Below are positions 2,922 through 56,600 of a stretch of 64,000 bases of DNA, piece by piece (the first letter of the stretch is position 1; the number at the start of each line of letters is the position of its first letter). A program made the translations under genes and the position numbers. Below the pieces are notes generated by a model, which saw only the letters and a program-made list of their open reading frames with translations, did no database searches and was not told the DNA's origin. The DNA is from Sphingomonas sp. EC-HK361 (GTDB taxonomy: Bacteria > Pseudomonadota > Alphaproteobacteria > Sphingomonadales > Sphingomonadaceae): positions 543,459-607,458 of the forward strand of contig NZ_LR701493.1 in the NCBI RefSeq assembly GCF_902498785.1, given 5' to 3'.

Positions 2922-5024
2922 ATGCTTCGACAATATGAGCTGGTCGATCGGGTCCTCGACTACGATCCCGATGCCGACGAAGGCCTGCTCAACCGTGCCT
3001 ACGTCTTTTCGATGCAGGCGCACGGATCGCAGAAGCGTGCGAGCGGCGACCCCTATTTCAGCCATCCGATCGAGGTGGCGGGCATCCTGACCGACCTCAG
3101 GCTCGACGCGCAGACGATCGCGACCGCGATCCTCCACGACACCATCGAGGATACCGTCGCCACGCCGGAACAGATCACCCAGCTGTTCGGCACCGACGTC
3201 GCGCGGCTGGTCGACGGGGTGACCAAGCTCTCCAAGATCGAGGCGCAGACCGAGAGCGAGCGCGCGGCGGAAAATCTGCGCAAGTTCCTGCTCGCCATGT
3301 CCGACGATATCCGCGTGCTGCTGGTGAAGCTCGCCGACCGGCTGCACAACATGCGCACGCTCCATCACATCGGGAAGCCCGAGAAGCGTCGGCGCATCGC
3401 GAAGGAGACGATGGATATCTACGCGCCGCTCGCCGAGCGGATCGGCATGTACGAGTTCATGAAGGAGATGCAGACGCTCGCCTTCGCGCAGCTCGAGCCG
3501 GAGGCGTACGAATCGATCACCCGGCGGCTCGAGCAGCTCAAGACGGGCGGCGGCGACCGGATTGCCAAGATCGGATCGGGGCTGAAGCTGCTGCTGTCGC
3601 GCCACGGCATCGACGCCGATATTTCGGGGCGCGAGAAGCATCCCTACAGCATCTGGAAGAAGATGCAGGAACGCCATATCAGCTTCGAGCAGCTCTCCGA
3701 CATCATGGCGTTCCGCGCGATCGTGCCGACGGAAGAGGATTGCTACGCCGCGCTCGGCCAGATCCACCGGCGCTGGCCCATGGTGCCGGGGCGGTTCAAG
3801 GATTACATCTCGACCCCGAAACGCAACGGCTATCGCTCGCTCCACACGAGCGTCATCCACGCCGACAATGCCCGCATCGAGATTCAGATTCGTACGCCCG
3901 ACATGCATGCGGAGGCCGAGTTCGGGCTGGCGGCGCACTGGGCCTACAAGCAGGACAAGGTCCGTGCCGAAACGCAGCACAGCTGGATCGCCGACCTTGT
4001 GGAGATTCTCGAGACTGCAGCCAGCCCCGAAGAGCTGCTCGAACACACGCGCATGGCGATGTATCAGGACCGGATTTTCGCCTTCACCCCCAAGGGCGAG
4101 CTGATCCAGCTGCCCAAGGGCGCGACGCCGATCGATTTCGCCTATGCGGTCCACACCGATCTGGGCGATCAGGCGGTGGGCGCGAAGGTCAACGGGCGCG
4201 TCGTGCCGCTGCGCACCGTCATCGAAAATGGCGATCAGGTGCAGATCCTGCGGTCAAAGGCACAGACGCCGCAGCCGAGCTGGCTGACGTTCGCGATCAC
4301 CGGCAAGGCGCTCGCCGCGATCCGCCGCCATCTGCGCCATGTCGAGCGCGACCAGTCGATCGCGCTCGGCCGCAAGATCTATGACGACATCGTCGGCCGG
4401 CTGCCCGCGCAGCTTGGATCGGACGCGCTCGCGATCGCGCTCCGGCGGCTGAAGATGACCGAAGAGACGCAGCTGATGATGGCGATCGCCAGGCGGACGA
4501 TCGGCGATGCCGAAGTGATGGAGGCGCTGATGCCGGGCTCCGCGGGCGCCGACGTCGCGCAGGCCGCACCGCAATCCTCGGCGATCTCGATCAAGGGGCT
4601 GACGCCGGGGGTCGCATACGACCTCGGCGATTGCTGCCACCCCGTTCCCGGCGACCGGATCGTCGGGCTGCGACGGCCCGATGCGGGGATCGAGGTGCAC
4701 CGGATCGACTGCCCGACGCTCGCCGGCCTTGCCGACCGGTCGGAGGCGGAGACCGACTGGATCGACGTGCAATGGGGCAGCAAGACCGAGGGCGCGACCG
4801 CGCGCATCGAGGTGGAGGTACGCAACGAACCCGGCGCGCTCGGCACGCTGGCGACGATCATCGGCCAGCAAAAGGCGAACATCATCAACCTGCGGCTCGA
4901 CAATCGCGATACCGGCATCCACACCAACGTCATCGACGTGGAGGTGCACGACGCGCACCAGCTGATGCGGGTTCTCGCTGCGCTGCGCGCCGCCGACGTT
5001 GTGCATGTGGCGGAACGGATCTGA
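2922..5024 (+). CDS. rsh: Rsh: bifunctional (p)ppGpp synthetase/hydrolase
   Basis: This 700-residue cytoplasmic enzyme makes and degrades the alarmone (p)ppGpp in the stringent response. The HD hydrolase domain (about 25-190) keeps its metal ligands: FSHP (H48), LHDTIEDT (H72, D73, D77). The synthetase domain spans about 235-345 (GREKHPYSIW, RFKDYISTPKRNGYRSLHT, EIQIRTPDMHAEAEFG). TGS is at 384-446, and a C-terminal ACT domain starts near 620 (NEPGALGTLATIIG). I chose ATG 2922 (MLRQYELVDR), since a start 13 codons earlier adds a tail unlike the family. The single Rsh fits alphaproteobacteria. Both active sites look intact. Confidence 0.95.
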   Translation: MLRQYELVDRVLDYDPDADEGLLNRAYVFSMQAHGSQKRASGDPYFSHPIEVAGILTDLRLDAQTIATAILHDTIEDTVATPEQITQLFGTDVARLVDGVTKLSKIEAQTESERAAENLRKFLLAMSDDIRVLLVKLADRLHNMRTLHHIGKPEKRRRIAKETMDIYAPLAERIGMYEFMKEMQTLAFAQLEPEAYESITRRLEQLKTGGGDRIAKIGSGLKLLLSRHGIDADISGREKHPYSIWKKMQERHISFEQLSDIMAFRAIVPTEEDCYAALGQIHRRWPMVPGRFKDYISTPKRNGYRSLHTSVIHADNARIEIQIRTPDMHAEAEFGLAAHWAYKQDKVRAETQHSWIADLVEILETAASPEELLEHTRMAMYQDRIFAFTPKGELIQLPKGATPIDFAYAVHTDLGDQAVGAKVNGRVVPLRTVIENGDQVQILRSKAQTPQPSWLTFAITGKALAAIRRHLRHVERDQSIALGRKIYDDIVGRLPAQLGSDALAIALRRLKMTEETQLMMAIARRTIGDAEVMEALMPGSAGADVAQAAPQSSAISIKGLTPGVAYDLGDCCHPVPGDRIVGLRRPDAGIEVHRIDCPTLAGLADRSEAETDWIDVQWGSKTEGATARIEVEVRNEPGALGTLATIIGQQKANIINLRLDNRDTGIHTNVIDVEVHDAHQLMRVLAALRAADVVHVAERI

Positions 5025-5073
5025 GCTGAATCGCCCTACCGTCCGGTGCGCAACGGGAGTAGGACACGCCGCC

Positions 5074-6180
5074 ATGCATGGTCCCGTTTCCCGTACGATC
5101 GATCCGCCTGCCCCCCGGACCGGCCACCGGCCGGCGCTGTCCGTCGTCATTCCCTGCTACAACGAGGCGGCGTGTCTGGACCTGCTCCACGCGCGCGTCT
5201 CCGCTGCGGCACAGGCGGCAGTTGGCGACGACCACGAGATCGTGCTGATCAACGACGGGTCGAAGGATGATAGCTGGGCGGTGATGCAGCGCCTCGCGGC
5301 GGGCGATCCGCGGCTCGTCGCGATCAATCTCTCGCGTAACCATGGGCATCAGCTGGCGCTGACCGCGGGGCTGGACCTGTGTGCCGGCGCGCAGATTCTC
5401 ATCATCGACGCCGATCTTCAGGACCCGCCAGAGCTGCTGGCCGACATGCGCCGCACGATGGCGGAACGGCAGGCCGACGTGGTCTATGCGGTCCGCCGCA
5501 AGCGCGCGGGCGAGACGATTTTCAAGAAGGCGACGGCGGCCGCATTCTACCGCGTGCTCGACCGGGTGACCGACACGCCGATCCCGCTCGACACCGGCGA
5601 TTTCCGCCTGATGAGCCGCCGAGCGCTCGACGCGCTGCTCGCCATGCCCGAACAGGCGCGATTCATTCGCGGGATGGTGGCGTGGGTCGGCTTCCGGCAG
5701 GTGCCGTTCCCCTATGACCGCGCGGAGCGGCATGCGGGCGAGACGAATTACCCGCTCGGCAAGATGATTCGCCTCGCCTTCGATGCGGTCACCGGCTTCT
5801 CGACCGCCCCCTTGCGCTGGGCGAGCCATGTCGGCCTCGCGCTCACCGGCGTGTCGGCGCTGCTCGTCGTCTACATCATTCTCGGCTGGCTGACGGGGTC
5901 GGCCGTGCAGGGCTGGACGTCGACGATGCTGGTAACGGTCATCCTTGGCGCGGTGCAGATGTTCGTGCTCGGCATGATCGGCGAGTATCTCGGGCGGCTC
6001 TACATCGAATCGAAGCGCCGTCCGCTGTATCTGGTCGCGGATGTGGCGGGGCCGGTGATGGGGCGCCCGCAGCTGGGTTTCGTCAGCGATGTGCCCGACG
6101 ATGAGGACCACGCGGCGCCGCTTGCCCCACCGGTTGATGACGGCCCGCAGATCAGGCGGGACGCGGTTCCGCGAGCGTGA
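5074..6180 (+). CDS. GtrB/DPM1-type polyprenyl-phosphate glycosyltransferase
   Basis: A 368-residue family 2 glycosyltransferase that would move a sugar from its nucleotide form onto undecaprenyl phosphate on the cytoplasmic side. The GT-A domain begins SVVIPCYNEAACLD and has the DxD-type DADLQDPPEL (112-121) and the DTGDFRLMS acceptor-site region. Two C-terminal membrane helices (about 245-305) give the typical GtrB shape. ATG 5074 has a GGGAGTAGG site just upstream; an earlier frame opening overlaps rsh and is unlikely. Its last 29 bases overlap the convergent methyltransferase gene. Together with the GtrA-like and GT-C genes nearby, it suggests a three-part lipid-linked glycosylation system. 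Sugar unknown. Confidence 0.88.
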   Translation: MHGPVSRTIDPPAPRTGHRPALSVVIPCYNEAACLDLLHARVSAAAQAAVGDDHEIVLINDGSKDDSWAVMQRLAAGDPRLVAINLSRNHGHQLALTAGLDLCAGAQILIIDADLQDPPELLADMRRTMAERQADVVYAVRRKRAGETIFKKATAAAFYRVLDRVTDTPIPLDTGDFRLMSRRALDALLAMPEQARFIRGMVAWVGFRQVPFPYDRAERHAGETNYPLGKMIRLAFDAVTGFSTAPLRWASHVGLALTGVSALLVVYIILGWLTGSAVQGWTSTMLVTVILGAVQMFVLGMIGEYLGRLYIESKRRPLYLVADVAGPVMGRPQLGFVSDVPDDEDHAAPLAPPVDDGPQIRRDAVPRA

Positions 6181-25514: not shown

Positions 25515-25530
25515 CCTCAATCCTCTCCTT

Positions 25531-25585
25531 GTGTCCCCGCGAAGGCGGGGACCCAGACTGTGCTCCCGCCTTCGCGGGAGCACAC
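25531..25585. repeat. Class A palindromic repeat (short-spacer form)
   Basis: Arms start GTGTCCCCGCGAAGGCGGGG and end with CCCGCCTTCGCGGGAGCAC. It lies between the thiolase and SDR genes of one strand. Confidence 0.85.
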
Positions 25586-26844: not shown

Positions 26845-27510
26845 ATGGAGGTGAGTGCGGCGATCGCGGCGCGGCGATCGGTCAGGGGGTATCTCGACAC
26901 GCCGGTGGCCGAGGACGTGCTCGTCACGATCGCGCGCAAGGCCGCGCGCGCCGCGACCGGGGGTAATATCCAGCCCTGGCATATCGATATCGTCCACGGG
27001 TCCGCGATGGCGGACCTGAAGCAGCAGATGGCGGGCAAGCTGGCGCGGGGCGAGACGGAAGCGCCGGGCTACGACATCTATCCGCGCGCAATGGAGCGCA
27101 TCCACAAGGATCGCATCTTCGGCGTGGGGGAGGAGCTGTACGGCCATCTCGGCATCCCGCGCGAGGACAAGGCGGCGCGGCGCGCGTGGTTCGCGCGCAA
27201 CTTCCAGTTCTTTGGTGCCCCCGCGGCCTATTTCTGCACCGTCGACCGGCGGATGGGGCCGCCGCAATGGGCTGACCTCGGCATGTATCTGCAGAACCTC
27301 ATGCTGCTTGCAGTCGAGGCGGGGCTGGCGACCTGCCCGCAGGAATGCTGGGCGATGTATCCGGCGACGGTCGAGGGGTTTCTCGGCACGCCGGCGGAGC
27401 GGATGCTCTTTTGCGGGGTCGCGATCGGGTTTGAGGACGAAAGCGAGCCCGCCAACCGGACGCGCAGCGCCCGCGCGCCGGAAAGCGAGTGGTTGAAGGT
27501 TAGGGGGTAA
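26845..27510 (+). CDS. Nitroreductase-family flavoprotein
   Basis: A 221-residue FMN-dependent nitroreductase-family protein: AAIAARRSVRGYLDTPV at the start (Arg/Ser FMN phosphate contacts), ARAATGGNIQPWHIDIV, and GLATCPQECWAMYP near the FMN ring, with LFCGVAIGFEDE at the end. The natural substrate is unknown; these enzymes reduce nitro groups, quinones or enones using NAD(P)H. ATG 26845 has GGAAGG 8 bases upstream. The gene diverges from the thiolase by 79 bases, and a class A repeat with a T-run directly follows its stop. Confidence 0.87.
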   Translation: MEVSAAIAARRSVRGYLDTPVAEDVLVTIARKAARAATGGNIQPWHIDIVHGSAMADLKQQMAGKLARGETEAPGYDIYPRAMERIHKDRIFGVGEELYGHLGIPREDKAARRAWFARNFQFFGAPAAYFCTVDRRMGPPQWADLGMYLQNLMLLAVEAGLATCPQECWAMYPATVEGFLGTPAERMLFCGVAIGFEDESEPANRTRSARAPESEWLKVRG

Positions 27511-27567
27511 TGTGTTCCCGCGAAGGCGGGAACCCAGACTGGACCCCCGCCTTCGCGGGGGTACATT
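27511..27567. repeat. Class A palindromic repeat, probable terminator
   Basis: Starts TGTTCCCGCGAAGGCGGGAA region and ends CCCGCCTTCGCGGGGGTACA, directly followed by six T bases on the plus strand. It sits between convergent nitroreductase and helicase genes. Confidence 0.85.
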
Positions 27568-31369: not shown

Positions 31370-31402
31370 GGCCATCGAAATGTGCCTGACGTCTGGTTTC
31401 TC

Positions 31403-31523
31403 TTCCGTTCGCCTCGAGTAGCCGTCGAGCCTGTCGAGACGGCGTATCGAGAGGTCTGCCCCGCGTCCGAGTCTCTCGATACGGGCTCTCGACAAGCTCG
31501 ATCCCTACTCGAGACAAACGGAA
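31403..31523. repeat. Class C palindromic repeat (TCGAG-rich)
   Basis: Outer arms TTCCGTT and AACGGAA enclose inner pairs, including CGTATCGAGAG with CTCTCGATACG. It lies between convergent kinase and chemoreceptor-like genes. A related copy is at 44781-44849. Confidence 0.7.
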
Positions 31524-31545
31524 GGGGCTTAGGTCGATCAGGTCC

Positions 31546-33405: not shown

Positions 33406-33439
33406 TCCGGGAGGATAGCGTGAGGCGCGCCGCCCGCAA

Positions 33440-33558
33440 AATCCTCCCCTGCAAGGGGAGGGGGACCAGCCGCAGGCTGGTGGAGGGGTATCCGCTATCG
33501 AGAGGGTGACACCCCTCCGCCGCGCTGCGCGCGCCGCCTCCCCTTGGAGGGGAGGATT
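33440..33558. repeat. Class B palindromic repeat (CTCCCC-rich)
   Basis: Outer arms AATCCTCCCCT and GGGGAGGATT enclose inner hairpins (CCAGCC with GGCTGG, and GGAGGGGT with ACCCCTCC). The 146 bases beyond it, up to the acyl-CoA dehydrogenase stop, hold more GC-rich hairpins, including GCCTGC/GCAGGC at 33595-33609. Confidence 0.85.
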
Positions 33559-40126: not shown

Positions 40127-40186
40127 AAGGCTCCGAAAGCGGATGCTACGCGTTCCCGAATGCCGGAACCGAATATTGGAGAGGTC

Positions 40187-41473
40187 ATGGCGAGCGATAC
40201 GCGCCGCACCAACTTGCCGCCGCTGGCGCTGCACGTACCGGAACCCAAGTTCCGGCCCGGCGACGCGGTCGATTTCGTCGGGGTCGACGTGCCCGCGGTC
40301 GATGCCGCCCGCCGCCCCGACACCGCGGCGCAGGCGTCGGAGTTTCCCGATCTCGCCTACGGCCTCGTCCGCGTCCTCGATCTCGACGGCACCGCCGGCG
40401 GCGCGTGGGACCCGAAGCTCTCGCCCGACATGATGCGCCGCATGCTGCGCAGCATGGCGCTCGTCCGCGCGTTCGACGAACGCATGTTCCGCGCGCAGCG
40501 GCAGGGCAAGACCAGTTTCTACATGAAGTGCACCGGCGAGGAGGCGGTCGCGGTCGCGGCGGCCCATGCGCTCGATTACGAGGACATGTGCTTCCCCTCC
40601 TACCGACAGCAGGGGCTGCTGATCGCGCGGGGCTGGAGCCTCGTCGACATGATGAACCAGATCTATTCGAACAGCGCCGATCGGCTCCAAGGCAAGCAGC
40701 TGCCGATCATGTATTCGGTGAAGGAAGCCGGCTTCTTCTCGATCTCCGGCAACCTCGCGACGCAATATCCGCAGGCGGTGGGCTGGGCGATGGCTTCCGC
40801 GGCGAAGGGCGACACGCGGATTTCGGCGGTGTGGTGCGGCGAGGGCTCGACCGCGGAGGGCGATTTCCACTCGGCGTGCACCTTCGCCAGCGTCTACCGC
40901 GCGCCGGTGATCCTGAACGTCGTCAACAACCAGTGGGCGATCTCCAGCTTTTCGGGCTTTGCGGGCGCCGAGGCGACGACCTTCGCGGCGCGCGCGGTCG
41001 GCTACGGCATCGCCGGGCTGCGGGTGGACGGCAACGATGCGCTCGCCGTCTATGCGGCGACCCAGTGGGCGGCCGAGCGCGCGCGCACCAATCAGGGCCC
41101 GACGCTGATCGAGCACTTCACCTACCGCGCCGAAGGCCACTCGACCTCGGACGATCCCGGCCAGTATCGCTCGGCCGGCGAGGCGACCGCCTGGCCGCTC
41201 GGCGACCCGATCGCGCGGCTGAAGGCGCATCTGATCGCGCTCGGCGAGTGGGACGAGGACCGCCACGCCGCGCAGGACAAGGAACTCGCCGAGGAGGTGA
41301 AGGTGGCGCAGAAGGAGGCCGAGAAGAACGGCATCCTCGGCCACGGCCTGCACCAGCCGCTCGACACCCTGTTCGACGGCGTGTTCGAGGAGATGCCGTG
41401 GCATTTGCGCGAGCAGCAGGCGCAGATGATGGCGGAAGAAGCGGCAAGCGGTCGCCCGTGGGATCGGAAGTGA
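40187..41473 (+). CDS. bkdA1: Branched-chain 2-oxoacid dehydrogenase E1 alpha
   Basis: A 428-residue thiamine-diphosphate subunit of the complex that converts branched-chain 2-oxoacids to acyl-CoA. It has FYMKCTGEEAVAVAAAHAL, the TPP motif AVWCGEGSTAEGDFHSA to VNNQWAIS (Gly-x-Gly ... Asn-Asn), and YRAEGHSTSDDPGQYR, the phosphorylation-loop region. The MVRAFDERMF helix is typical of the BCKDH group. ATG 40187 has GGAGAGG 2 bases upstream of the spacer; a longer frame has no site. E1-beta and E2 follow. A class A repeat lies in the 87-bp gap to E1-beta. Confidence 0.93.
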   Translation: MASDTRRTNLPPLALHVPEPKFRPGDAVDFVGVDVPAVDAARRPDTAAQASEFPDLAYGLVRVLDLDGTAGGAWDPKLSPDMMRRMLRSMALVRAFDERMFRAQRQGKTSFYMKCTGEEAVAVAAAHALDYEDMCFPSYRQQGLLIARGWSLVDMMNQIYSNSADRLQGKQLPIMYSVKEAGFFSISGNLATQYPQAVGWAMASAAKGDTRISAVWCGEGSTAEGDFHSACTFASVYRAPVILNVVNNQWAISSFSGFAGAEATTFAARAVGYGIAGLRVDGNDALAVYAATQWAAERARTNQGPTLIEHFTYRAEGHSTSDDPGQYRSAGEATAWPLGDPIARLKAHLIALGEWDEDRHAAQDKELAEEVKVAQKEAEKNGILGHGLHQPLDTLFDGVFEEMPWHLREQQAQMMAEEAASGRPWDRK

Positions 41474-41490
41474 GCGTTCCCGCCCATCAT

Positions 41491-41545
41491 TGTATCCCCG
41501 CGAAGGCGGGGATCCAGCCTGGGCTCCCGCTTTCGCGGGAGCACA
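41491..41545. repeat. Class A palindromic repeat inside the BCKDH operon
   Basis: Starts TGTATCCCCGCGAAGGCGGG and ends with CCCGCTTTCGCGGGAGCAC. It sits in the E1-alpha/E1-beta gap and has no T-run, so it may stabilise or process the message without ending it. Confidence 0.85.
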
Positions 41546-41560
41546 ACTTCGGATTGCGAT

Positions 41561-42616
41561 ATGACTGACCTGATGGATCACACCGCCGAAGCCGCCACCA
41601 CCACCCGCATGAACATGATCCAGGCGATCAATTCCGCGATGGACGTCATGATGGCGCGCGATCCGGATGTCATCGTGATGGGGGAGGATGTCGGCTATTT
41701 CGGCGGCGTCTTCCGCGCGACCGCGGGGTTGCAGGCGAAATACGGCAAGACCCGTGTGTTCGATACGCCGATCACCGAATGCGGCATCGTCGGCGTCGCG
41801 GTCGGTATGGGGGCTTACGGCCTGCGACCGGTCCCCGAGATCCAGTTCGCCGACTACATCTACCCCGCGCTCGACCAGCTTGTCAGCGAGGCCGCGCGGC
41901 TGCGCTATCGCTCGGCGGGCGAGTTTACCTCGCCGATCACGGTGCGCTCGCCGTTCGGCGGCGGCATCTTCGGCGGCCAGACGCACAGCCAGAGCCCCGA
42001 GGGCATCTTCACGCACATCTCGGGGGTGAAGACGGTGATTCCCTCGACCCCCTATGATGCCAAGGGCCTGCTGATCGCCGCGATCGAGGACAATGATCCG
42101 ACGATCTTCTTCGAGCCCAAGCGCATCTACAACGGCCCGTTCAACGGCCATTGGGACCGCCCGGCGGAAAACTGGTCGAAGCATCCCGCGGGCGAGGTGC
42201 CGACCGGCTATTACAAGATCGAGCTCGGCAAGGCGAAGGTCGTGCGCGAAGGCGAGGCGCTGACGATCCTCGCCTATGGCACGATGGTGCATGTCTGCCA
42301 GCAGGTCGTCGCCGACACCGGCGTCGATGCCGAGATCGTCGACCTGCGCACGCTGGTGCCGCTCGACATCGATACGATCGAGGCGTCGGTAAAGAAGACC
42401 GGCCGCTGCATGATCGTCCACGAGGCGACGCGCACCTCTGGCTTCGGCTCCGAACTGTCGGCGCTGGTCCAGGAGCGGTGCTTCTATCACCTCGAGGCGC
42501 CGATCGAGCGCGTCACCGGCTTCGACACGCCCTATCCGCACAGCCTCGAATGGGCGTATTTCCCCGGCCCCGTCCGCATCGGCGAGGCGCTCAAGAAGAT
42601 CATGAAGGACGCATAA
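41561..42616 (+). CDS. bkdA2: Branched-chain 2-oxoacid dehydrogenase E1 beta
   Basis: The 351-residue partner of E1-alpha. It contains VMGEDVGYFGGVFRATAGLQ, TPITECGIVGVAVGMGAYG, FADYIYPALDQLVSEAARL and RSPFGGGIFGGQTHSQSPEG with the His that helps proton transfer, then the C-terminal VHEATRTSGFGSE and ITG motifs. Length is typical. Its stop overlaps the E2 start by one base (TAATG), ensuring coupled translation. The E1 alpha-beta pair forms a heterotetramer. Confidence 0.94.
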   Translation: MTDLMDHTAEAATTTRMNMIQAINSAMDVMMARDPDVIVMGEDVGYFGGVFRATAGLQAKYGKTRVFDTPITECGIVGVAVGMGAYGLRPVPEIQFADYIYPALDQLVSEAARLRYRSAGEFTSPITVRSPFGGGIFGGQTHSQSPEGIFTHISGVKTVIPSTPYDAKGLLIAAIEDNDPTIFFEPKRIYNGPFNGHWDRPAENWSKHPAGEVPTGYYKIELGKAKVVREGEALTILAYGTMVHVCQQVVADTGVDAEIVDLRTLVPLDIDTIEASVKKTGRCMIVHEATRTSGFGSELSALVQERCFYHLEAPIERVTGFDTPYPHSLEWAYFPGPVRIGEALKKIMKDA

Positions 42617-43986
42617 TGGCCCGCTTCACCTTCAAGCTGCCGGACATCGGCGAAGGCATTTCCGAGGCCGAGATCGTCGCATGGCATGTCGCGGTCGGCG
42701 ACCGCGTCGAGGAAGACCAGCAGATCGCCGACATGATGACCGACAAGGCGACCGTCGAGATGGAATCGCCGGTGTCGGGCACGGTGATCGAGCTGGCCGG
42801 CGAAGTCGGCGATCAGGTCGCGATCGGCGCGGCGCTGGTGGTGATCGAGACCGAGGGCGATGTGTCGGCGGAGGAAGCGCCGGCGTTGGGGCCGGTCGAG
42901 ACCGAACTGAGGGCGGTGCCTGCCAGCGAGGCGCAGGAAGAGGTCGCCGAGCAGTATGAAGCGGAGAATCCTGGGGTCGAGGACTTGGCGGAAACGTCCG
43001 CGTCGCAGCCCGCCCGTGCTCCCGCGCAGGCGGGAGCCCAGTGCCCGGAGCGCACCGCTGGCGACCCTGGGCTCCCGCCTGCGCGGGAGCACAATGCGGG
43101 TGAAGCGCGCGACCATTCAACCCACTCAGTGTTGGCCTCCCCCGCCGTCCGCGCCCGCGCGCAAGACCTCGGCGTCGACCTTGCGCAGGTAAAGGTGTCG
43201 GACGGCGACCGCATCCGCCACGCCGATCTCGACGCCTTCCTCCGCTATGGCACCGGCCAAGGCTACCACGCCCCCCACGCATCGCGCGCCCGCGAGGACG
43301 AGGCTGTCAAGGTCATCGGCATGCGCCGTCGCATCGCCGAGAACATGGCGGCATCGAAGCGCAATATCCCGCATTTCACCTATGTCGACGAGATCGACGT
43401 CACCGCGCTGGAGGCGATGCGCGCCGATCTCAACGCCAATCGCGGCGGCCGTCCCAAGCTCACCATGCTGCCGCTGCTGATCGTCGCGATCTGCCGCACG
43501 CTGCCCGAGTTCCCGATGCTCAACGCGCGCTACGACGACGAGGCGGGCGTGGTGACGCGTTCTGGTCGCGTCCATCTCGGGATGGCGACGCAGACCGATG
43601 CAGGGCTGACCGTGCCGGTCATCCGCGACGCGCAGGACAGGAACGTCTGGCAACTCGCGACCGAGATCACCCGGCTTGCGGAGGCCGCGCGCGCGAACAA
43701 GCTCGCCCCCAGCGAGATGGGCGGCGGCACGATCACCGTCACCTCGCTCGGCCCGCTCGGCGGCATCGCGACCACGCCGGTCATCAACCGTCCGGAGGTC
43801 GCGATCATCGGCCCGAACAAGATCGTCGAGCGGCCGGTTTTCGACGGAGACGACATCCGCCGCGCCAAATGCATGAACCTGTCGATCAGCTGCGACCACC
43901 GCGTCGTCGATGGCTGGGACGCGGCAAGCTATGTTCAGGCGCTCAAGCGCTTCCTCGAGACGCCGGTGCTGCTCTTCGCCGACTGA
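42616..43986 (+). CDS. bkdB: Branched-chain 2-oxoacid dehydrogenase E2 (acyltransferase) with inserted repeat
   Basis: A 456-residue E2 core subunit. The N-terminal lipoyl domain (1-77) carries lipoyl-Lys44 in MMTDKATVEM. A long Glu/Ala linker follows, then a peripheral-subunit-binding domain near 171-210 (SPAVRARAQDLGVDLAQV) and the catalytic domain with DHRVVDG (H428 in this region). Residues about 134-159 are encoded by a perfect 26-bp inverted repeat of the class A type (43016-43092), read in frame as APAQAGAQ and LPPAREHN. The linker is flexible, so the insertion is probably tolerated. No E3 gene is nearby. Start overlaps the E1-beta stop. Confidence 0.94.
   Translation: MARFTFKLPDIGEGISEAEIVAWHVAVGDRVEEDQQIADMMTDKATVEMESPVSGTVIELAGEVGDQVAIGAALVVIETEGDVSAEEAPALGPVETELRAVPASEAQEEVAEQYEAENPGVEDLAETSASQPARAPAQAGAQCPERTAGDPGLPPAREHNAGEARDHSTHSVLASPAVRARAQDLGVDLAQVKVSDGDRIRHADLDAFLRYGTGQGYHAPHASRAREDEAVKVIGMRRRIAENMAASKRNIPHFTYVDEIDVTALEAMRADLNANRGGRPKLTMLPLLIVAICRTLPEFPMLNARYDDEAGVVTRSGRVHLGMATQTDAGLTVPVIRDAQDRNVWQLATEITRLAEAARANKLAPSEMGGGTITVTSLGPLGGIATTPVINRPEVAIIGPNKIVERPVFDGDDIRRAKCMNLSISCDHRVVDGWDAASYVQALKRFLETPVLLFAD
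43016..43092. repeat. Class A palindromic repeat inside the E2 coding sequence
   Basis: Perfect 26-bp arms, starting GTGCTCCCGCGCAGGCGGGA and ending with TCCCGCCTGCGCGGGAGCAC, are separated by 25 bases. The 77-bp element lies inside the E2 reading frame without a stop and codes for linker residues about 134-159. Confidence 0.92.
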
Positions 43987-52786: not shown

Positions 52787-52906
52787 AATCCTCCCCTGAA
52801 AGGGGAGGGGAACCAGCGAAGCTGGTGGAGGGGTGTTCCCCTCAACGAGAGCGCGATACCCCTCCGTCATCGCTGCGCGATGCCACCTCCCCTTGCAGGG
52901 GAGGAT
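52787..52906. repeat. Class B palindromic repeat
   Basis: Outer arms AATCCTCCCCTG and AGGGGAGGAT with inner CCAGCG/CGCTGG-like pairing (ACCAGC with GCTGGT). It lies between convergent MFS and CDC48 genes. Confidence 0.85.
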
Positions 52907-55217: not shown

Positions 55218-55327
55218 CGTCATCCTCTTGCCTGCTGATCGAACCCCGGGGTCGCAAGCGCGCAACATGGGGGTGCGGTTCCCGATTGCGAAGGGGTGAA
55301 CGCGCCGATGGGACCGGTTACAGACAG

Positions 55328-55357
55328 AAAAAAGGGCCGGCTCCGAAGAGCCAGCCC
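55328..55357 (-). terminator. Rho-independent terminator with UUCG loop
   Basis: Arms GGGCTGGCTC and GAGCCGGCCC (one G-U pair) enclose TTCG and are followed by TTTTTT on the minus strand. No protein gene ends before it on that strand, so it must end a non-coding transcript. Confidence 0.85.
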
Positions 55358-55395
55358 ATGAAAGTTTTTAGGAGAGGATGCCTGAAAGGCCCGCC
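55328..55395 (-). ncRNA. Probable small RNA with anti-Shine-Dalgarno loop
   Basis: On the minus strand a transcript from about 55395 would hold a short hairpin (GCC/GGC), an unpaired TCCTCTCCT (55378-55370) complementary to AGGAGAGG-type ribosome sites, then AAAAACTTTC and a strong terminator at 55357-55328. There is no reading frame here on this strand worth calling. A loose TTGCAC (55425-55420) sits 17 bases from a poor -10 (CACATA, 55402-55397), so the 5' end is uncertain. The C-rich loop plus terminator layout is that of alphaproteobacterial small RNAs that bind ribosome sites. Confidence 0.55.
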
Positions 55396-55547
55396 CTATG
55401 TGCGGCGCGGCAGCATCTTGTGCAAGTGCGAAAAGATTGACGTGAATTGCAGAAAATGCACGCGGGGGCTGGCCAATGCATGGGTGGCGTGCCTATTTTG
55501 CAATCACATCCTGTGACGCGCTGCACAAGATAGCGAGAGACACGCTC

Positions 55548-56453: not shown

Positions 56454-56575
56454 AATCCTCCCCTAGAAGGGGAGGTGGCAGCGCGAAGCGCTGACGGAGG
56501 GGTATCGCGCCATCGAGAAGGCGACACCCCTCCACCATGCTTCGCATGGTCCCCCTCCCCTTACAGGGGAGGATT
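56454..56575. repeat. Class B palindromic repeat
   Basis: Outer arms AATCCTCCCCT and AGGGGAGGATT, with inner pairing such as GCGCTTCGCGC-like and CATGCTTCGCATG. It lies between convergent LysR and ppiB genes. Confidence 0.85.
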
Positions 56576-56600
56576 TTGCAGAAGCTCCGGTCTGACGCCC

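Follow-up and report, generated by a model that had tools for sequence, protein, structure and literature searches.

The E2 gene and the palindrome read in frame within it

The stretch of Sphingomonas sp. EC-HK361 DNA analysed here (64,000 nt, in the following the window) carries an operon with the gene order E1 alpha, E1 beta, E2 (Table 1). The deduced E2 acyltransferase of 456 residues has a lipoyl, an E3-binding and a 2-oxoacid_dh domain, and no NCBIfam model was matched above its cut-off by E1 alpha, E1 beta or E2. The signature ADMMTDK and the operon suggest that this E2 is probably part of a branched-chain 2-oxoacid dehydrogenase complex. Direct reading of the sequence confirmed what a first-pass annotation had described within this gene, namely a perfect 26-bp inverted repeat with arms 25 nt apart at 43016-43092, which is in frame and accounts for codons 135-159. 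Each arm is a hairpin in its own right, with 8 bp in the stem, 4 nt in the loop and CCAG as its tail. Inverted repeats were scored throughout without gaps (match +1, mismatch -2, span up to 220; threshold 16), and dinucleotide shuffles of the window's linker (n = 300) gave best scores of at most 14 compared with the observed 26. The predicted RNA fold of the element stretch (-73.7 kcal/mol, z -9.5) was as low in none of 200 shuffles. As the element measures 77 bp, which is not divisible by 3, the bare element alone cannot be the net change of the gene. This copy is free of stops in all six frames, so that stops do not dictate the choice of frame here. A frame-shifting sequencing error can be rejected, since the gene is open and its flanks are conserved in the 80 aligned relatives (part of the alignment viewed).

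Table 1. Coordinates of the E2 operon, its palindromic element and related features; positions without a locus prefix refer to the window.
Feature	Position	Strand	Basis or remark
E1 alpha gene, operon of E2	40160-41473	+	gene call; nearest NCBIfam TIGR03181, below cut-off
E1 beta gene, operon of E2	41561-42616	+	nearest NCBIfam NF006667, below cut-off
E2 acyltransferase gene	42616-43986	+	Pfam, translation
Lipoyl domain PF00364, residues 5-77	42628-42846	+	Pfam
Linker between lipoyl and E3-binding domain, recurrent capture site	42859-43131	+	alignment of 81 E2 proteins
5' arm of the element, itself a hairpin GCTCCCGC-GCAG-GCGGGAGC with tail CCAG	43016-43041	+	direct reading
E2 residues APAQAGAQCPERTAGDPGLPPAREH (codons 135-159), read from the element	43018-43092	+	translation
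25-nt spacer separating the arms	43042-43066	+	direct reading
3' arm, complementary to the 5' arm over all 26 bp	43067-43092	+	direct reading
E3-binding domain PF02817, residues 172-205	43129-43230	+	Pfam
Dispersed repeat copy, class of the E2 element	25526-25584	+	repeat family D7
Dispersed repeat copy, class of the E2 element	27507-27565	+	repeat family D7
Repeat copy, class of the E2 element, in the gap between E1 alpha and E1 beta	41487-41545	+	repeat family D7
ImuB-like gene copies	L072:347-2539, L053:290-2632, L023:449-2101 (-)		Pfam
Intergenic copy with E2 flank, L030 genome	L309:1592-1751		160 bp, 90% identity with that genome's E2 linker

The repeats near 25531, 27511 and 41491, which the annotation had placed in one class with the E2 element, are real copies and share the class when judged by eye (stem of 8 bp, loop of 4 nt, CCAG tail, paired units in head-to-head order), but their spacing differs, with units only a few bases apart instead of the 25-nt spacer of the E2 copy. 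The window's copy between E1 alpha and E1 beta scores below 16; among the 81 loci compared below, 27 of 75 readable gaps between these genes hold a palindrome with a score of at least 16, and in 14 of these 27 gaps of relatives the printed arm has a CGTC head. The simple core pattern CCCGC-GCGGG occurs 9 times in the window with 5.1 expected, which is weakly above chance, and as 8 of 100 shuffles reached such a count the pattern by itself is no evidence. No Rfam family threshold was reached by the E2 element in a scan of the window, the single match being RF00519 (mmgR/suhB small RNA) at 55319-55397 on the minus strand with 46.2 bits. Longer repeats of the TCCTCCCC kind, which resemble type C below, lie at 33436-33492, 52787-52906 and 56454-56579 in direct and inverted orientation, and an inverted repeat (I6) with 52-nt arms of 83% complementarity, 19 nt apart, was found at 31402-31524.

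The build of the element recalls the CGTC-type REPs of Alphaproteobacteria, which form families in sphingomonads, have no dedicated transposase and encode 20-30 residues where they are intragenic, as described by Di Nocera and colleagues (2013; PMC3733652). The repeats named A types below share with them the 8-bp stem, the 4-nt loop, the CCA tail and the head-to-head dimers described there (PMC3733652). The window copy falls within the REP range of 8-9 bp for the stem and 4-5 nt for the loop and has the short CCA tail, and the A types show high copy number, a mostly intergenic location and head-to-head dimers. The terminal CGTC tag (or TGTC, CCTC), however, is absent from the window's E2 copy, which is preceded by CCGCCC and starts with GTGCTCC, and it is therefore called CGTC-like here and not filed as a member of the CGTC REPs. 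It also differs by its 25-nt spacer, and types B to E look unrelated to CGTC REPs by eye. PF01797 transposases were found in one of nine relatives' genomes, with no match in the other eight, which accords with the lack of a dedicated transposase stated for CGTC REPs (PMC3733652).

Palindromes in the E2 linkers of relatives

The window and the best 80 of 360 relatives, all near kin, gave 81 E2 loci for comparison. In the alignment of the 81 E2 proteins the domains could be aligned and the linkers could not; the linkers differ between species in both sequence and repeat type, which disposes of the annotation's own counter-explanation of a linker conserved with varying codons. An inverted repeat with a score of at least 16 was present in 50 of the 81 E2 linkers, corresponding to 2.43 per kb (20.6 kb), and the linkers are thereby richer in palindromes than the intergenic or unassigned DNA of the same loci (119 repeats in 171 kb, 0.70 per kb), with 8 such repeats in 882 kb of other coding DNA (0.009 per kb); these coding and intergenic shares are approximate, with genes called by our own codon-usage script and contig ends counted as unassigned. 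None of 810 dinucleotide-shuffled linkers reached a score of 16. Carriers have linkers of 85.9 residues on average compared with 80.3 in non-carriers, and as they are barely longer, capture seems to be coupled to the loss of older linker sequence.

Six type motifs, written after inspection of the linkers, assigned 63 of the 81 linkers to types B (19), D (13), A2 (11), A1 (7), C (7) and E (6); the remaining 18 have no recognised element, and their best linker inverted repeat scores below 13, as do the repeats of the labelled rows L013, L043, L051 and L059. None of the six motifs had a match when the cores of the same 81 E2 genes (89 kb) were scanned. Types A1 and A2 appear akin in form, and B to E seem unrelated to A, judged by eye. 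Instead of the one insertion event in one strain that had been assumed at first, the phenomenon is thus recurrent across relatives and involves several types. In the E2 linker of L008 (gene 4603-6021) the loop of a type B hairpin contains several nested palindromes, a branched-looking arrangement within the coding frame, and in the E2 linkers of L014, L029 and L052 part of the type B element is tandemly duplicated with the frame kept.

Genome-wide counts, which cover the A and B stems, revealed the A stem pattern at 3-124 sites in 8 of 10 relatives' genomes and at none in the other two, with no site for the reversed control in any of them, and, in one genome, 91 sites for the B stem (control 0). 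The element region of the Leaf33 E2 gene has over 20 further matching places within 1.6 Mb of that genome, with 75-86% identity among the matches listed and many places matching on both strands. Together with the Pfam domains on either side of the linker, this bears out the earlier description of a dispersed palindromic family in a flexible linker. With all types pooled, the same 1.6 Mb hold 121 intergenic inverted repeats with scores of at least 16 vs 12 within genes. The 1,493 called genes of Leaf33 contain these 12 internal repeats, 8 of which (E2 included) are repeat-family insertions by eye, and the top score among them is that of the E2 copy. The E2 linker stands out among Leaf33 genes, yet other hosts exist. 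Named from their sequences, these include truB, a fused 2-oxoacid dehydrogenase E1 and a biotin carboxylase subunit with one element each; the palindrome in truB (L244:17140-18132 = G001:C1:337140-338132) is in frame and of type C. Among the 81 loci, 7 of the 8 coding repeats outside the linker fall into one gene at six loci (L072, L053, L023, L018, L022, L044). This gene, an ImuB-like Y-family polymerase by Pfam at three loci and by position and sequence at the remaining ones, is a second recurrent host of in-frame palindromes, with 7 insertions at 6 loci. The annotation called translated palindromes not commonly reported in sphingomonads; intragenic REPs of sphingomonads have been published for other genes, and the same paper describes them in many genes, among them truB (of other species) and repair genes (PMC3733652).

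To what extent the E2 linker is special could be read from its paralogues. In nine genomes with a total of 27 E2-type genes, the E2 of the window's type has a linker repeat with a score of at least 12 in 9 of 9 and of at least 16 in 8 of 9, vs 0 of 17 readable linkers of the two other E2 paralogues in the same genomes, an 18th (L118) being cut by a contig end. The paralogue linkers are likewise Ala/Pro-rich and of similar length, and one paralogue (L114) has a repeat with a score of 12 outside its linker. That any E2 linker can serve as target is ruled out by these 17 paralogue linkers. For a wider view, 119 genomes of Leaf33's family were searched and 89 further E2 loci read from among the stronger matches; 87 of them were recognised by the signature (all except L193 and L220), and none of the 87 is identical to any of the 81 rows over the last 250 residues. 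Of these linkers 14 score at least 16, 15 at least 14 and 19 at least 12, leaving 73 of 87 below 16, and none of the 87 genes reaches 16 outside the linker. In more distant family members most linkers are of a plain, Ala/Pro-rich kind. The phenomenon is most pronounced near Sphingomonas and sporadic farther out.

Turnover, reading frame and conserved stems

On a tree of the E2 cores at least 42 type changes are needed, compared with a mean of 52.1 for shuffled labels, and 0 of 200 shuffles were as low; the labels are therefore clustered, and inheritance accounts for some of the pattern. Support in the tree is low, with 15 starred branches among the 78 inner ones; taken alone, the well-supported branches force at least 6 changes each for B, D and A2, and at least 4, 3 and 2 for A1, C and E, respectively. 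Close relatives may agree in type, as L002 and L006 (both A2; 95.4% E2-core identity), or differ, as L002 and L008 (A2 and B; 93.9%), L003 and L004 (B and none; 94.3%) or L007 and L009 (D and none; 94.0%). L007 is labelled Microvirga sp. SRT01, and as its E2 core is 94% DNA-identical to that of Sphingomonas sp. Leaf343 (L009), this label is probably wrong. In sisters of differing type the entire stretch from ENPGVEE to LASPAVR differs and cannot be aligned, and one clade of 17 has A2 (3), B (9) and C (5) at the same place between near-identical protein flanks. These type differences between close relatives rule out a single old insertion inherited by all as the full account. A target-site duplication was not recognised by eye in the sister alignments, where linkers of different type are unalignable, and no clean empty site was found among them. 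The earlier suggestion that the element is still moving is accordingly supported indirectly, by the turnover between sisters and by a dispersed copy with E2 flank (see below), but not by a target-site duplication.

Where an anchor motif was found, the prevailing frame was used in 7/7 (A1), 10/10 (A2), 15/17 (B), 6/7 (C), 9/12 (D) and 5/6 (E) linkers, with rows that are related and counts that are not independent; one A2, two B and one D row are without the anchor. In each of five cases inspected the peptide of the frame in use has a net charge of 0 or -1, as would fit selection at the peptide level.

The stems of the elements turned out to be almost free of synonymous change. In clade B (9 species) the synonymous difference averages 0.040 for the arms, 0.133 for the spacer, 0.41-0.51 for the adjoining codons and 0.29 for the core; none of 366 gene windows elsewhere (mean 0.294) and none of 2000 amino-acid-matched sets were as low as the arms. 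Similarly, in clade C (5 species) it is 0.068 in the arms, 0.36-0.58 in the adjoining codons and 0.24 in the core, and the arm value was reached by 0 of 355 windows elsewhere (mean 0.237) and by 1 of 2000 matched sets. In the 3' hairpin of clade B the loop codon varies freely among species and the stem codons do not. Such frozen stems fit two causes, selection for the hairpin or exchange with dispersed copies. In the L030 genome the E2 spacer recurs at an intergenic place as part of a 160-bp match to the E2 gene with 90% identity, which takes in 47 bp of E2 coding flank beyond the element (39/47 identical). From this match, sequence appears to have passed, in one direction or the other, between E2 and a dispersed copy in L030, and this observation, on the one copy with E2 flank seen so far, speaks for exchange as the cause of the frozen stems.

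Origin of the pattern and its meaning

The reading that we prefer, with a probability of about 0.6, is that a permissive E2 linker repeatedly captures and swaps dispersed REP-like palindromes in a neutral, disorder-like frame. Copies of several REP-like families would enter the E2 linker again and again, and the survivors would be those with a stop-free, uncharged to slightly acidic frame rich in Pro, Ala, Gly and Glu and with a workable linker length, selection removing frame-breaking copies and those that make the linker charged or hydrophobic. Captured elements may later be replaced by other elements or eroded into plain linker, and the stems may be held near the family consensus by ectopic gene conversion with the many dispersed copies or by selection for the hairpin. 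Recurrence, site, the several types, the frame bias, the turnover among close relatives, the specificity among paralogues, the slow synonymous change of the stems in two clades and one dispersed copy with E2 flank were observed directly; how the events were ordered, whether copies exchanged sequence, why this E2 should be favoured and which enzyme mobilises the repeats are what we infer. Permissiveness alone does not suffice, as the similar-length linkers of two paralogues are free of repeats and the density is above that of intergenic DNA. Also weighing against this reading are the PF01797 result (one of nine genomes), which leaves no transposase candidate, the failure to find a clean empty site or a target duplication, the single dispersed copy with E2 flank and the clustering of the type labels on the tree. 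Candidate reasons for the choice of this E2 would be weaker constraint on a catabolic enzyme, a site preference or a use of the hairpin.

The last of these can be extended to a rather unlikely account of the whole pattern, in which the hairpin is useful because strong mRNA structure between the parts for the lipoyl and E3-binding domains delays translation and lets the lipoyl domain fold first, or adjusts the stability of the operon mRNA, and in which unrelated palindromes are recruited since the fold alone matters. The stems near-frozen at synonymous sites in clades B and C, the free loop codon beside fixed stem codons in clade B, the palindrome density above that of intergenic DNA and the fold predicted for the window's RNA all agree with such a use, but exchange with dispersed copies, one of which was seen with E2 flank, also predicts frozen stems. 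Moreover, 18 of 81 near relatives are without a recognised element (best linker repeat below 13) and 73 of 87 wider-family E2 genes score below 16. By the measures used a hairpin is therefore not required, and a need for it in E2 function everywhere is unsupported. The first-pass proposal that the element was kept for RNA structure retains this low probability, with the same near and wider relatives without a hairpin speaking against it. Unlikely as well is a target preference, by which the stretch would be a favoured insertion site with, for example, an older palindrome as landing site for the next. It would explain why carriers of several types use the same place, why the 17 paralogous linkers are free and why the palindromes of L008 are nested in the loop of another, but no common target motif or duplication was visible by eye at the junctions, and ImuB-like genes and some single genes carry elements too.

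An improbable explanation is that linker alleles with different elements pass from species to species, the conserved flanking domains allowing homologous recombination, so that few true insertions are needed. Near-identical protein flanks with three types in one clade and the weak tree support are in line with it. The codons adjoining the element, however, are more diverged synonymously (0.36-0.58) than the core (0.24-0.29) in both clades, which is the opposite of what recent import predicts, and several types at one site still require several insertions. That there is no repeat at all, and an Ala/Pro-rich linker became palindromic by chance or convergence, can practically be dismissed. Linkers of non-carriers are Ala/Pro-rich too, but chance or composition as origin is ruled out by the shuffles, none of which reached the score, and by the Ala/Pro-rich paralogous linkers without repeats, and identical stems recur at many genomic places where reversed-pattern controls give none.

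The preferred reading, repeated capture by a permissive linker, sets the E2 gene apart from the known cases of translated palindromes. The classic ones are the Rickettsia palindromic elements (RPEs), in-frame translated palindromes reportedly described by Ogata and colleagues in 2000 and 2002 (cited in PMC6649704 and PMC3733652). RPEs are spread over many genes. The Sphingomonas E2 case appears similar in that palindromic repeats lie in an open frame within an ordinary protein gene, and differs in that one protein site holds six repeat types across a genus while paralogues are spared. RPE-6 has been equated with CGTC-1 and RPE-4 with CGTC-4 (PMC3733652). REPs at about the same site are noted in the accessible part of that paper only for recB of two Xanthomonas species, and serial occupation of one linker is not mentioned there (PMC3733652). 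Perfect inverted repeats with little decay were also described for coding sequences of Nematomorpha mitochondrial genes; their arms encode conserved mitochondrial amino acids (PMC6649704), whereas those of E2 belong to dispersed repeats and lie in a linker that varies. Among the papers listed by a literature search, mostly open-access ones, no title or abstract opening dealt with palindromes in E2 linkers. Translated REPs are already known, and what appears new within this search is their recurrence at one protein site.

Translated palindromes are commonly regarded as scattered accidents. Six types at one segment, with two paralogue linkers free in nine genomes, amount to a natural experiment with built-in controls, which bears on how disordered linkers gain sequence, on how selfish repeats persist inside genes and on what preserves nucleotide structure in coding DNA, selection or only exchange. 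For the proteins studied here it means that linker sequences are poor markers of descent. If, as we doubt, the E2 linker were an evolutionary hairpin slot, into which cells recruit any palindromic repeat available since mRNA structure where the lipoyl and E3-binding domains meet aids co-translational folding or sets subunit ratios, unrelated selfish repeats would be functionally interchangeable parts of a gene.
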